A stretch of 64,000 nucleotides of DNA, taken from NCBI GenBank assembly GCA_017642885.1, contig JAEPOM010000019.1, positions 1-64,000 of the forward strand, given 5' to 3'. The position numbers and the translations under genes were made by a program. The notes beneath the pieces are model-generated. The model worked only from the letters and a program-made list of their open reading frames with translations. It was not told the origin of the DNA and did not search any database. The first letter of the stretch is position 1. Each line of letters opens with the position of its first letter. The stretch comes from Henriciella sp. (GTDB taxonomy: Bacteria > Pseudomonadota > Alphaproteobacteria > Caulobacterales > Hyphomonadaceae). Shown one piece after another: positions 7,946 through 15,627 of the stretch.

Positions 7946-9565
7946 CTATTTGGGGCAGCGTTCGGGGCGGTCAATATGACGGTCGACAAGAATTCCGTCG
8001 CCGTCATCGGTTTTGAACGCGTGCGTCCATTCTGCTGTGCGTGGTAGGGGATCATAATCACCCGCGAGGTACAGTCTGAGCTCGCGCTGGATCGGGCAAC
8101 CATTTGACCGGTGGCCGAGATCGACGGAGACGGCGCCTTCTGGTTGCCAGGTCGCGAAATCGGCTTGAATGGGTGGACGAAGGTTCGATCGGTAACTCGC
8201 AACGAGGACGCGATTGGACTCCAGATCTGCAAGGTCCACGCCTTCTGCGAAACTCTTCGGGCTCGGATTATAGCGCCACATGATCAACGGCACGTCGAGC
8301 TGGTCTTTGAGATAATAATCAAGCCCATGCCAAACCTCACGCTCATCGACCAGAATGGCGCTCGGCTGTAACCGTTCCACTTCGAGTTTCAGTTGCTCTG
8401 ACAAGTCCTGCCAGCCCCGTACGCGTTTCAAGTCATTGTCCCGGCCCATCGCAGCCGTCCAGCTTTGAGGCCCCAGAGCGAGAACTGTTGCGAGAACCCC
8501 CACAATGCCTTGAAAAGCGAGGCCTGACCAAAAAGCCGGTCGCCAACCTTTTGAGCGCAACAGAAACCCGCCGATCCAAACGCTTGCAGCCGGGTATGCG
8601 GTGGCTGCCCAGTTCGCGTGGGCGCGCGAAAGTACGGCTTGGAACGCGATGATCAGGAGGACCGGAATAATGAAACACGCAAGCCAGGTTTCTTTTGTGC
8701 GCTGTGCATGCGCAGCGTCGCCAAGATCGGCTAGAACGCGACGCGGACGCAGAAATGCCAGCCCTGCAATGAGCGCAACAAAGCTAACCGGACCAAACAC
8801 GCCCATCTGGTCGCCGAGAAACTTGGGCAGATTTTCAAGATTGAACAGCTGCCCGCCCAGATTGGCATTATCGACCGTATGACTGACGGTCTTGAAATCA
8901 TTTGCCGCGTTCCAAAGCAGATGTGGCGCGAACACCGCCGCAGCGATGAGTAGCGCTACGATCCCTTTCCGGCTTAGTAGAGCGGTCCTGGTATCGCGAT
9001 CGAAAACACTTGTGAGTGCGATGCCAATCGCGAAATAGAGCATGGCGTATTTCGAAAGAAACCCGGCTCCAATGGCGAGCCCGAGCGCGGCCACACCTAC
9101 CCAACCCAGGTCTTCTTCCCGTAAGCGCCAGAATAAGTAGAGCGCACCGCACCAGAAGGGGAACAAGACCCCGTCCGTCGAAATGACGCCCGATGACAGA
9201 ACGATCCCAGGCATGAAAAGATAGGTCAGGACAGTAATGAGGCCTGCCCAACTATTGAACATGCGCCGCGATAAGAGAAACAAGAAGAGCGCCGCGATGG
9301 CGTGAAAGACCGGTGCCAGAATCCGAATCGCTGCTTCCGAATCGCCGAACAGAGCGGTCGATAGGTGGATCACCCAGGCGATCATTGGCGGTTTCGAGTA
9401 ATAACCCCATTCGAGGCTTTGTCCCCATCGCCAATACTGTGCCTCATCTGCGTAAAGCTCGAGCGGCGACCAGACCACCAGCAATAACCGCATGGCCAGA
9501 AGTCCCGCGATTATTGCGATTGCGAGCTTTGACTGGGTGTCTGAGAGGAGGGCTTTTTGCGACAT
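7946..9565 (-). CDS. ArnT-like glycosyltransferase (GT39/GT83 family, membrane)
   Basis: The 539-residue protein is a polytopic membrane glycosyltransferase of the PMT/ArnT superfamily. After the first membrane helix (residues about 13-31) comes the catalytic first periplasmic loop LELYADEAQYWRWGQSLEWGYYSKPPMIAWVI, with the D-E acid pair and the K-P-P motif. About ten further hydrophobic segments follow, then a soluble C-terminal region. Such enzymes move a sugar from a polyprenyl-phosphate donor to a lipid or protein. It is transcribed divergently from the TonB-dependent receptor, sharing a 206-base intergenic region with a Pho-box-like array. Substrate unknown. Confidence 0.85.
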   Translation of the reverse strand: MSQKALLSDTQSKLAIAIIAGLLAMRLLLVVWSPLELYADEAQYWRWGQSLEWGYYSKPPMIAWVIHLSTALFGDSEAAIRILAPVFHAIAALFLFLLSRRMFNSWAGLITVLTYLFMPGIVLSSGVISTDGVLFPFWCGALYLFWRLREEDLGWVGVAALGLAIGAGFLSKYAMLYFAIGIALTSVFDRDTRTALLSRKGIVALLIAAAVFAPHLLWNAANDFKTVSHTVDNANLGGQLFNLENLPKFLGDQMGVFGPVSFVALIAGLAFLRPRRVLADLGDAAHAQRTKETWLACFIIPVLLIIAFQAVLSRAHANWAATAYPAASVWIGGFLLRSKGWRPAFWSGLAFQGIVGVLATVLALGPQSWTAAMGRDNDLKRVRGWQDLSEQLKLEVERLQPSAILVDEREVWHGLDYYLKDQLDVPLIMWRYNPSPKSFAEGVDLADLESNRVLVASYRSNLRPPIQADFATWQPEGAVSVDLGHRSNGCPIQRELRLYLAGDYDPLPRTAEWTHAFKTDDGDGILVDRHIDRPERCPK

Positions 9566-9652
9566 GAGGTTCCATTAAGCTGCCATGGCGAAGACATAAA
9601 CCCTTCGCCGCATGTGTGGCTTATTTGCAATGCCAACTGTCTGATTCAGCAA

Positions 9653-9691
9653 TGTCACAGGAGTCTAACATGACTGTCACATTTCTGTAAT
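9653..9691 (+). promoter_or_regulatory. Tandem Pho-box-like array upstream of the TonB-dependent receptor
   Basis: CTGTCAC-ATTT-CTGTAAT at 9674-9691 matches the PhoB consensus of two 7-bp repeats separated by four bases. Two further half-sites keep the same 11-base step upstream (TGTCAC from 9653, the weaker TCTAAC from 9664), so four helical turns are marked at 9653, 9664, 9675 and 9686. The array ends about 80 bases before the receptor start, the right place to replace a -35 element. PhoB control is inference. Confidence 0.72.
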
Positions 9692-9771
9692 GGCGCGCAA
9701 ATAGTGGGACGCTCAGTAGTCCTCTGAGCATCCCGCTCAGCCTGCTTTAGTGACAAATTGAGGGGAAACTC

Positions 9772-12700
9772 ATGTCCAACTGGAAACTCCTATCAGGTGT
9801 TGCCGCCGCCTCTATCATGACCGCAGCTATCGTTGCTCCGGCTGAGGCGCAGGTTACGACCTCTAGTATTCGTGGCAATGTCACGACCGACGCTGGGGCC
9901 GTTGTGCCGAATGCTGCGGTTACGATCACTCACACGCCTTCAGGTACCGTGTCATTGGCTACGACGAATGCAAGTGGTGCCTTTTCGGCGCGCGGTCTTC
10001 GTGTTGGCGGTCCTTACACCGTGGCGATCAGCGGCGGCGAGTTTGCGCCAGTCGAGATTACCGATGTGTACCTGACGCTCGATAACACGCTGAGCCTTCC
10101 AGTAACTGTTACTGGCGCGCGCACAATGGACACCGTTGTCGTTACCGGAACACGCGCTCTCGCAGGCTTCTCAAACGAGGGGCTCAGCACAAGCCTCGGT
10201 TTGGAAGCACTGAACGAAATCACATCAATCGACCGCGACATCACGGATGCAGCGCAACTTGACCCGTTTGCAAGCGTAAATGCCCAGACCGGAGGCGCAA
10301 AAGAACTGAGTATTGCTGGTGCAAACAACCGCTTTAACTCTTTGACCATCGACGGCGTTGCGCTGAACGACCGGTTTGGTCTGAACGCCAATGGGTATCC
10401 GACCCAGCGGTCGCCGATTTCCTACGACGCGATCGAGTCGCTGTCGATCCAGACCGCACCTTACGATGTTGAGTTTAACGGTTTTACCGGCGGAACCATC
10501 AATGCTGTTACTAAATCCGGCACCAATGAATTCCATGGCTCGCTCGCTTACTACAAGACGGACGATTCACTGATCGGTGACAAAAACCAGGAAGACGATT
10601 TCGACTTCACGTTCGAAGAAGAAACTATTGTTGCAACGCTCGGCGGTCCAATCATCAAGGACAAGCTTTTCTTCTTTGTTGCCTATGACAAGTATGAAGA
10701 AGTTGCGCCATTGCTCAACGGACCTGCAGGATCCGGTGCCCTCAATACATTCGATGACATTTTGCAGTCAGACGTCGATGAAGTTAGCCAGATCGTTCAA
10801 AACGTCTGGGGCTTTGATATTGGCGGATTTAGCAAGGGTCCTGCTGAGGACGAGAAGATCCTCGCCAATTTCGACTGGAACATCAACGATAATCACCGCG
10901 CGAAATTTACCTACATCCGAACGGAAGGTAACACCATTCGCGAGCAGAACGGTAACAACTTCCTGGCGTCGGATAATATTCTCGGTGCGTCGTCTGCATG
11001 GTATGATCGCTCGGAAAAAGTCGAGAGCTATATCGGCCACTTGTTCTCGGATTGGACACCAAACCTCTCCACTCAATTCAAGATCGCGAGCACTACTCAA
11101 GCAACCGGTCAGGATTCTTTGAATGGTGCTGATTTCCCATCATTTGCGGTATTCCTTCGGACCGGAGCGGACGGTGATGAAAATTATCTGGTCACCGGCC
11201 CAGACCGCTTCCGGCATGGTAACCAGCTCGATCAGGACTTTTTCCAGATCAAAGGGGTTGTCGAATATAGCAATGGCGATCACCTGCTCAAAGTTGGATT
11301 CGAGCGTGAAGAAGTCGATGTAAACAACTTGTTTGCTCAGAATTCTGAAGGCTCCTACGTTTTTGACAGTGTCGCCGACCTGCAAAACGCAACGGCGTCA
11401 GGCTTGCTCTATAACAACGCTGTGACCAATGACGAAAATGATCTGCGCGCGATTTGGGGCTATGACTATACCTCGTTTTATGTGCAAGACACTTGGTCTC
11501 CCGGTCCAAATCTGACCTTTGATGCAGGTCTTCGGTACGATGTTTACGGTTCGGACGGTGAGATCCGTGAGAACCAGAACTTCATTAATCGATATGGCTT
11601 TTCGAACGCGGGCGACATTGATGGCTTGGATGTAATTCTGCCGCGTTTGTCGTTTGATTGGCAGCCAACTTCTGACCTCACCATCCGTGGTGGCGTCGGA
11701 CGCTTCTCCGGCGGATCACCAGGCGTTTGGATCTCCAACAGCTATTCTAACGATGGCGTGATTTCGGACAGTTCGAACGCGTTTGGTGTAGTGAATGTTC
11801 CTACGACACCGGACTCTGCAACCGGCCAGTATATTCCGGCGAGCGTCCTGACTGCCCTGTCAAGCAACGCTCCAGACGGATCTGTCAATGCTCTGGCCCC
11901 GGATTTCGAGATTCCAACCACTTGGAAATTGAGCTTGGGCGCCGCCTATAGCGCTGACCTTCCATTGCTCGGCGAAGACTGGTTGCTATCAGTTGACTTC
12001 CTTCACAATCAGCTGGACGGCTCGAGTTATTGGTACAATCAAACTTGTGAAAATCCGGTCGCTACTGCACCAGATGGACGCGGCATCTACGATTGCGGCC
12101 GTCCCGAAGCGATTGTCCTCGGTTCTTCCACCGCCGATGCTGACAGCACATTGCTAGCGGTATCTGCGTCAAAAGATTGGGAAACGAATTGGGGCGATAT
12201 CGACTTCTTCACCAGCTACACCCACGCGGATGTAGACGATATTGGTTACGGCACATCATCGACAGCGACGTCTAACTATTCAGACTTCGCCGCTTTTGAC
12301 CGCCAGAGGCCAACCATCGGAACGTCGAACTTTCAGGTCGAGCATTTGTGGAAAATGCGCGCGAGCTGGAAAAAAGAGTTCTTTGAGGGATATGCAACGA
12401 AAGCGTCGCTCTTCGCGACACGTCGCTCTGGTCAGCCTTACAGCTATACCTTCAGCGAAAACAATACCTGTGTATTCGACCTCGATTCAGACACGACGAA
12501 CGCGTATCTCACCGGAGACCGCTGTGCGCGCGAAAGCCGCAATGATGATGCCGGACATCTGCTTTATGTGCCGTTTGGCGCAACAGATCCGCTATTTGCG
12601 GCGACATCATTTGGTGGAGATGCAACCGAGCAGCAAGCTTTCTTTGACTATATCAATAGTTCGGAGTTGGCTCAGTATGCTGGCGGTATCGCACCACGGA

Positions 12701-13008
12701 ATGGTGACAATTCTCGTTGGTCGACAATTATTGATCTGCGATTGCAGCAAGAATTTCCGGGCGTAATGGAAGATCATAGAACATTTGTCTTCCTGGACAT
12801 CGAAAATCTGGGCAACCTTCTCAATTCGGATTGGGGGCGCATTGAGCGCACCCGCTATGAATACGAACGGGATGTGGTTTCTGCACGGATCACCAATAAC
12901 GGTCAGTACGAGTATTCCAATCTGAATAGCGACGGCAGCATCAAGAACCTTGAAGTGTTGTCTCAGTCAGTCTGGCAAGTTCAGTTCGGTATCAAGTACG
13001 AGTTCTAG
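9772..13008 (+). CDS. Oar-like TonB-dependent outer-membrane receptor
   Basis: The 1078-residue protein is an outer-membrane receptor energised by TonB. It has a Sec signal peptide (residues 1-26, ending PAEAQ), a carboxypeptidase-regulatory-like beta-sandwich (about 29-112; SIRGNVTTDAGAVVPNAAVTI, ASGAFSARGL), a plug domain (about 120-245) and a long barrel ending in aromatic KYEF. The layout is that of Oar-like receptors, larger than siderophore receptors. Receptors of this type in related marine bacteria have been linked to phosphate limitation, which fits the Pho-box-like array upstream. Ligand unknown. A ribosome site (GAGGGGAAA) precedes ATG 9772. No transducer-type FecR/FecI neighbour is present. 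Confidence 0.92.
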   Translation: MSNWKLLSGVAAASIMTAAIVAPAEAQVTTSSIRGNVTTDAGAVVPNAAVTITHTPSGTVSLATTNASGAFSARGLRVGGPYTVAISGGEFAPVEITDVYLTLDNTLSLPVTVTGARTMDTVVVTGTRALAGFSNEGLSTSLGLEALNEITSIDRDITDAAQLDPFASVNAQTGGAKELSIAGANNRFNSLTIDGVALNDRFGLNANGYPTQRSPISYDAIESLSIQTAPYDVEFNGFTGGTINAVTKSGTNEFHGSLAYYKTDDSLIGDKNQEDDFDFTFEEETIVATLGGPIIKDKLFFFVAYDKYEEVAPLLNGPAGSGALNTFDDILQSDVDEVSQIVQNVWGFDIGGFSKGPAEDEKILANFDWNINDNHRAKFTYIRTEGNTIREQNGNNFLASDNILGASSAWYDRSEKVESYIGHLFSDWTPNLSTQFKIASTTQATGQDSLNGADFPSFAVFLRTGADGDENYLVTGPDRFRHGNQLDQDFFQIKGVVEYSNGDHLLKVGFEREEVDVNNLFAQNSEGSYVFDSVADLQNATASGLLYNNAVTNDENDLRAIWGYDYTSFYVQDTWSPGPNLTFDAGLRYDVYGSDGEIRENQNFINRYGFSNAGDIDGLDVILPRLSFDWQPTSDLTIRGGVGRFSGGSPGVWISNSYSNDGVISDSSNAFGVVNVPTTPDSATGQYIPASVLTALSSNAPDGSVNALAPDFEIPTTWKLSLGAAYSADLPLLGEDWLLSVDFLHNQLDGSSYWYNQTCENPVATAPDGRGIYDCGRPEAIVLGSSTADADSTLLAVSASKDWETNWGDIDFFTSYTHADVDDIGYGTSSTATSNYSDFAAFDRQRPTIGTSNFQVEHLWKMRASWKKEFFEGYATKASLFATRRSGQPYSYTFSENNTCVFDLDSDTTNAYLTGDRCARESRNDDAGHLLYVPFGATDPLFAATSFGGDATEQQAFFDYINSSELAQYAGGIAPRNGDNSRWSTIIDLRLQQEFPGVMEDHRTFVFLDIENLGNLLNSDWGRIERTRYEYERDVVSARITNNGQYEYSNLNSDGSIKNLEVLSQSVWQVQFGIKYEF

Positions 13009-15003: not shown

Positions 15004-15627
15004 ATGGAACAAATGCTAACCACTCCGGTGACGTCATTGCTGATCGCGGGGAATGTGATCGCCAGTTTGATTGCCCTCTCCAATCCGTCCTTCATGGCTA
15101 AAAACCTATTCCATGTAGGGCCGATCCTGCAGCAAAAAGAGTGGCACCGCATGGTGACTAGCGGGTTCCTGCATGGCGGAATTCTGCACCTTTTGGTAAA
15201 TATGTATGTCCTCTTCATGTTCGGTGGATTTGTGGAACGTGTCGTGGGGCCGGTCGCCTATTTGATCATCTATTTTGCTGCTCTGCTTGGCGGCAACGCG
15301 TGGGCGCTTTTAGAGAACAAGGCTAAGCCGTCTTATCGCGCGCTGGGCGCTTCGGGCGCGACATCGGGCATCGTGATGAGTTTCATTCTGTTCCGCCCGT
15401 TCGAGCCGTTGATGATTTTTCCAATCCCGTTCTTCATGCCTGCAGTGGTTCTCGGAATCGTGTTCTTGGTCGGCAGCGCGATCTTGTCGCAAAGAGACAA
15501 TAAAAGGATTGGGCACGAAGCACATTTGGGCGGCGCGCTTGCAGGCATCCTAGTGACGATTGCCGTCCAGCCAGCTGCGCTATCCAATTTCTCACAGCAG
15601 GTTGCCAGGGCGCTTGGGGGGAGCTGA
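15004..15627 (+). CDS. Rhomboid-family intramembrane serine protease
   Basis: The 207-residue membrane protein has six likely helices and the rhomboid catalytic dyad: Ser117 in GASGATSG and His175 in GHEAHLGGALAG. The upstream loop has the expected W-R-M-V-T-S-G-F-L-H-G-G and LLVNMYVLFMFG helix with the N residue of the oxyanion site. It cleaves transmembrane segments of other proteins; its substrate is unknown. It follows aguB after 45 bases and sits 2 bases before zapE. Confidence 0.9.
   Translation: MEQMLTTPVTSLLIAGNVIASLIALSNPSFMAKNLFHVGPILQQKEWHRMVTSGFLHGGILHLLVNMYVLFMFGGFVERVVGPVAYLIIYFAALLGGNAWALLENKAKPSYRALGASGATSGIVMSFILFRPFEPLMIFPIPFFMPAVVLGIVFLVGSAILSQRDNKRIGHEAHLGGALAGILVTIAVQPAALSNFSQQVARALGGS

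Follow-up and report, generated by a model that had tools for sequence, protein, structure and literature searches.

The locus studied here raises two linked questions: whether the gene for an Oar-like TonB-dependent receptor of Henriciella sp. is switched on by phosphate starvation, and which compound the receptor would bring into the cell. The window, i.e., the whole stretch of 64,000 nucleotides of contig JAEPOM010000019.1 that was analyzed, carries a PhoB-site-like repeat upstream of this gene. Marine bacteria are often phosphorus-limited, and to our knowledge the outer-membrane passage of nucleic-acid fragments too large for porins is not settled. Our analysis makes PhoB-driven expression of an Oar-type TonB-dependent uptake receptor highly probable. 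Taken singly, PhoB control of the receptor is very likely as judged from the DNA sequence, and uptake of a phosphorus compound by the receptor is likely.

The core of the site, CTGTCACATTTCTGTAAT, differs from the consensus CTGTCAY-N4-CTGTCAY at one of 14 positions, and it ends 80 nt before the receptor ATG (9772). Two hundred dinucleotide shuffles of the window promoter region gave a mean score of 9.1 and never reached 13. The site, called a textbook PhoB site in the earlier note on this DNA, is confirmed. The sequence CTGTCACNNNNCTGTAAT has a single exact copy in the 3.66-Mb genome, namely the window site. Like the E. coli PHO box (PMC4415409, PMC10294691, PMC3348028), the window box consists of two 7-nt direct repeats 4 nt apart, in units of 11 nt, and overlaps the -35 position; in contrast to it, it has CTGTAAT instead of CTGTCAT as its second repeat and is followed by a weak predicted -10 element. 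The features of the locus are collected in Table 1.

Table 1. Features of the receptor gene, its promoter and its divergent neighbor in the window.
Feature	Position	Strand	Evidence
Core PHO box CTGTCAC-ATTT-CTGTAAT	9674..9691	+	13/14 of the consensus; kept in homologous promoters; no other exact match to the promoter pattern in the genome
Weak third half-site TCTAAC, 11 nt before the core	9664..9669	+	Weak conservation at this position (z 3.3)
Fourth half-site TGTCAC, 22 nt before the core	9653..9658	+	In the window and L035; position hardly conserved (z 1.1)
Predicted -10 element TAGTGG, 10 nt past the box	9702..9707	+	TA at the same gap in 29/41 homologous promoters; same spacing before pstC, and before pstS with a weaker box
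Oar-like TonB-dependent receptor, 1078 aa	9772..13008	+	ORF; Pfam CarboxypepD_reg, Plug, OMP_b-brl_4; predicted TonB-transporter fold
Carboxypeptidase-regulatory-like domain, aa 32-113	9865..10110	+	PF13620, E 9.4e-16
Probable TonB box DTVVVTG, aa 120-126	10129..10149	+	Translation; MDTVVVT in the majority consensus of 11 homologues
Plug domain, aa 154-237	10231..10482	+	PF07715, E 3.9e-6
ArnT-like (PMT_2) glycosyltransferase, divergent neighbor, thought to lie outside the Pho unit	7946..9565	-	PF13231, E 6.1e-31
Conserved element GTGGCTTATTTGCA / GTGKCWTWTTTGCA, ArnT-like side of the box	9616..9629	.	Matching element in 25/102 homologous promoters

The box was conserved on the gene strand of homologous promoters. 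Matches to the receptor were present in 57 of 61 family genomes, including that of the window, and the homologue set comprised 79 named loci from a wider collection; as these were the best among 585 matching stretches, they do not represent every homologue. Promoters with a 40-mer in common were treated as one group, one representative of which was scored for the best consensus match between -200 and -20. This gave 83 groups, the window included, after omission of L015, L029, and L032, which had too little upstream DNA, and of L089, L101, L114, and L115, which had none. At least 12 of 14 positions matched in 33 of the 83 groups on the gene strand and in none on the other strand, and at least 11 matched in 48 and 7, respectively. 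The reversed-pattern control reached these two thresholds in 4 and 18 groups on the gene strand and in 1 and 6 on the other. Box scores averaged 10.94 over the 83 groups and 8.58 in shuffles. The 35 groups that scored 10 or less include gammaproteobacterial loci with S1/P1-nuclease neighbors (L082, L083, and L107; box scores of 8 or 9). Control scoring covered 39 other TonB-receptor genes of 21 genomes in which a homologue is present; with several start codons allowed and with L262 dropped as not being a receptor locus, one reached at least 12 and four reached at least 11. In the genome of the window, 28 TonB-receptor genes with a plug domain were compared, and only the window receptor scored at least 12; two others scored 11.

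The distance from the box to the predicted -10 element was also fixed. For this analysis we used the 41 promoter groups whose box scored 11 or more and was located between -140 and -70, the boxes having been chosen without regard to any TA downstream, and took TA as the first bases of the -10 element. TA lay exactly 10 nt past the box in 29 of these groups, and the highest count at any other gap from 0 to 24 nt was 10. The -10 element of the E. coli phoA promoter likewise lies 10 nt from its box. A strict spacing between the pho box and the core promoter is expected of PhoB-activated promoters (PMC10294691), and the PhoB sites of the phoA promoter overlap the -35 position (PMC3348028). The window promoter has the fixed spacing of this promoter type and no separate -35 element, and a sigma-70 scan of positions 9540-9800 gave no promoter match.

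The earlier note had described the site as a four-step array. Half-sites at an 11-base step are indeed present (TGTCAC at 9653, TCTAAC at 9664, TGTCAC at 9675, and TGTAAT at 9686), but only the pair at 9675 and 9686 is strong, and in the 41 homologous promoters the conserved unit was the core with a loose third repeat and hardly the fourth. The mean half-site score (maximum 7) was 3.29 at -11 versus a background of 1.89, and 2.34 at -22; at -33 it was not raised (1.93, z 0.1). The check in orthologous promoters that had been suggested found all four steps in L035 and three recognizable steps in L010, but poor upstream conservation overall. On these scores we rejected the four-step array as the conserved unit, and a functional array that extends past the core and a loose third repeat is not supported. 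The additional repeats may provide higher affinity in the window and its near kin.

Comparison with the pst promoters, also suggested earlier, revealed the same architecture before the genome's own pstC and, more weakly, before pstS. The pattern TGTCAY-N5-TGTNAY-N10-TA has one exact match in the genome, which is the window site. Three places match with one mismatch, among them the pstC promoter, where TGTCAC-N5-TGTCAA is followed by TA at 10 nt, and the places with two mismatches include the region before a PstS-like gene. Since matches with up to two mismatches were not in excess over the reversed control (40 and 34 versus 25 and 41), only the top of this list is informative; weaker PHO-box matches are common across the genome, and inspection of 14 further places with one or two mismatches yielded no additional convincing Pho gene. 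The genome also encodes the corresponding regulator. Every member of a pstC-pstA-pstB-phoU-phoB locus scored above its NCBIfam cut-off, and the PhoB protein of this locus is the only one in the genome above the PhoB cut-off. A PhoR-like kinase ahead in the locus scored 269.9, below the cut-off of 334.2.

A sequence model, R1, was built from 24 homologue promoters with the window left out. In the genome of the window, where 150 of 366 first-look candidates were scored, R1 matched only the window site at E <= 10, and weakly (E 0.18); within the same 150 candidates it returned neither the pstC nor the pstS site. Across 21 genomes of the genus, including this one, with 150 candidates scored per genome, the best match lay before a receptor homologue in 16. 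Training sequences came from six of these 16 genomes and possibly from one or two others, so that eight to ten were held out. Of the remaining genomes, one (G083) had its best match next to an ArnT-like gene at the end of a contig, another (G084) had it at a place not before a receptor, and three gave no match at E <= 5. In G059, the model additionally matched the promoter of a gene that scores above the PstC cut-off (L302), a promoter it had not seen. Because the receptor gene carried the best match in 16 of the 21 genomes, the proposed role of the receptor can be tested in several laboratory strains.

We propose that, when phosphate is scarce, phosphorylated PhoB would bind the tandem core repeat at the -35 position and recruit RNA polymerase to the weak -10 element that follows after 10 nt. 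Synthesis of the receptor would ensue, and it would import a phosphorus-containing compound, nucleic-acid-derived compounds being the most likely candidates as judged by the genes that adjoin its relatives. The earlier suggestion of an uptake or scavenging system switched on by phosphate starvation is strongly supported with regard to Pho control, by conservation, spacing, and likeness to the pst promoters, and is plausible with regard to uptake. The PhoB regulon of Caulobacter crescentus, likewise an alphaproteobacterium, includes various TonB-dependent receptors as well as exonucleases and one nucleotide pyrophosphatase (PMC11208175). Pho-controlled TonB receptors are thus known, and the regulation proposed here is of a known kind. 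The description of that regulon does not single out Oar-type receptors or name a nucleic-acid cargo for the receptors (PMC11208175). Our literature search, mostly at the level of titles and the beginnings of abstracts, recognized no report that links Pho control to an Oar-like receptor, or nucleic-acid phosphorus to a TonB receptor. What is new is the link of this Oar-like receptor family to nucleic-acid-recycling neighbors, and we propose, by homology only, an import of nucleic-acid-derived phosphorus.

The protein itself conforms to its earlier description as a 1078-residue Oar-like receptor with a carboxypeptidase-regulatory-like N-terminus, as indicated by the ORF and the three Pfam domains. 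The segment DTVVVTG between the N-terminal and plug domains is presumably the TonB box. In the AlphaFold model (pLDDT 78.9, pTM 0.78), the nearest PDB folds are TonB-dependent transporters, e.g., 6ofr and 4zgv, the two best matches, 10-11% identical, being YddB and the ferredoxin receptor FusA. Judged by this predicted fold, the window protein is a TonB transporter; the model is silent on the ligand. Searches with the receptor sequence gave no match in the PDB at E <= 0.001 and none in NCBIfam. The receptor is very acidic, with 66 K+R and 144 D+E residues, and simple electrostatic binding of nucleic acid is therefore not favored.

Evidence on the cargo comes from the neighborhoods of the homologues. 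In the window, the receptor is flanked by the ArnT-like gene upstream and by genes for an agmatine-deiminase-like protein and an N-carbamoylputrescine amidase downstream. None of these is a nucleotide gene, so the cargo is read from the homologues, many of which are mutually related. Neighbor genes were found by clustering of flanking ORFs, and their families were checked by Pfam. The list of 20 query proteins was drawn up after the homologue loci had been seen, so the following counts are not blind; five queries are not specific to nucleic acids (two PhoD-like proteins, alkaline and acid phosphatase, and phosphonate transport), related loci were counted apart, and L262 was again dropped. With self-matches excluded, a nucleic-acid-recycling gene lay within about 3 kb in 25 of the 79 loci, or in 23 when EEP proteins were also left out. 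Counting phosphatase and phosphonate genes as well raised the number to 29, or to 33 with self-matches. The most frequent neighbors, self-matches included, were uridine kinase (12 of 79), a NupC-type nucleoside transporter (10), and one type of EEP nuclease/phosphatase (6), followed by uracil phosphoribosyltransferase (Upp), S1/P1 nuclease, and 5'-nucleotidase (4 each). AMP nucleosidase, cytidine deaminase, pyrimidine nucleoside phosphorylase, thymidine kinase, adenosine deaminase, nucleoside deoxyribosyltransferase, nucleoside hydrolase, PhoD-like and alkaline phosphatases, and phosphonate transport genes were also found. Box and nucleotide neighbors occur together in L094, L096, L103, L112, L122, and L125, but this is not a rule, as the low box scores of L082, L083, and L107 show.

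None of the 39 control receptor loci had such a neighbor; they come from 21 of the same genomes, mostly picked because their homologue loci had such neighbors, and their flanks are uneven, some being shorter than 1.5 kb on one side. Among 27 receptor loci of the window's own genome, viewed with shorter flanks of 1.5 kb on each side of the plug and hence with mainly upstream neighbors, one had such a neighbor, a NupC gene beside another receptor. We tentatively consider the cargo to be nucleic-acid-derived, i.e., oligonucleotides, nucleotides, or nucleosides, on the evidence of the homologues' neighbors. Being under probable Pho control and repeatedly found next to nuclease, nucleotidase, and nucleoside-transporter genes, the receptor offers a deletable candidate for the entry of nucleic-acid fragments. 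The other TonB-dependent receptor with the NupC-type neighbor (L174, G000:C66:95716-96036) weighs against our proposal and represents a second candidate nucleoside receptor.

PhoB could also control the receptor while the cargo is another phosphorus compound, such as a phosphonate, phytate, or the head group of a phospholipid, or else a metal complex required in phosphate starvation, a serious possibility that falls somewhat short of probable. Four Robiginitomaculum loci (L116-L118 and L126) have a fused phosphonate-binding/permease protein nearby, the PhoD-like, acid, and alkaline phosphatases among the neighbors are not specific to nucleic acids, and the window itself lacks an adjoining nucleotide gene. 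In contrast, the recurrent neighbors, led by uridine kinase and NupC, are mostly nucleoside and nucleic-acid genes.

The Oar protein of Myxococcus xanthus, also a TonB-dependent transporter, is required for secretion of the protease PopC, and such proteins are grouped by N-terminal domains including CarboxypepD_reg (PMC6434023). The window receptor, which was compared with it by description and domains only, shares the CarboxypepD_reg and Plug kinds of domain, and phosphate starvation might accordingly induce export through an Oar-like secretion protein. We regard this as improbable, since the recurrent neighbors in relatives are catabolic and uptake genes; the M. xanthus protein is described in its PopC role, with no link to phosphate (PMC6434023).

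Returning to PhoB control of an uptake receptor, we considered that the repeat might be used by another regulator of the OmpR/PhoB family, such as ChvI. The ChvGI system of Caulobacter acts on a TonB-dependent receptor through the sRNA ChvR, but the ChvI motif, TTGC-N3-GCAA, is unlike the window repeat (PMC9731502). The repeat and its spacing, moreover, recur before pstC both here and in a relative, and we reject this explanation as very improbable. A chance match, for which one might cite the single control receptor promoter of 39 at 12 of 14 and the common weaker matches in the genome, is rejected as having a negligible probability in view of the one-strand conservation, the fixed TA spacing, and the uniqueness of the site in the genome.

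The history of the family was examined in a FastTree tree of 67 receptors. A clade with support 100 unites the window receptor with others, 38 rows in all; it comprises Hyphomonadaceae, Hellea, and Robiginitomaculum, with 25 gammaproteobacterial rows nested inside. The branch uniting the window's group with the gammaproteobacterial rows has a support of 93, and this nesting suggests transfer of the receptor between classes. Among the 29 rows outside this clade are loci of Henriciella and Hyphomonas, likewise with ArnT-like and agmatine-deiminase-like neighbors. Compared with window positions 9600-13008, L035 has a promoter of close similarity and the same signal peptide, but overall identity of the receptors is only 38%, indicating that the promoter can be kept while the barrel changes. 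It is conceivable, if speculative, that the Oar-type receptors of marine Alpha- and Gammaproteobacteria constitute a PhoB-controlled, TonB-energized entry route for the phosphorus of extracellular nucleic acids (oligonucleotides or nucleotides) that moved between the classes and ended up next to nucleoside-recycling genes.

The opposite side of the intergenic region appears to lie outside this regulation. The ArnT-like gene had been thought able to respond too, but the best box match on its strand in the window intergenic region is 10 of 14. As all 83 groups, of which only some have the ArnT-like neighbor, lacked an opposite-strand match of at least 12, we discarded Pho control of this gene. 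The conserved element GTGKCWTWTTTGCA may be part of the ArnT-like gene's promoter. In three homologous promoters (L020, L021, and L034), the sequence TTGC-N3-GCAC is found just upstream of the box and resembles the Caulobacter ChvI motif. Farther along the window, positions 15004-15627 encode a Rhomboid-family protein with a sub-cut-off match to the rhombosortase model.
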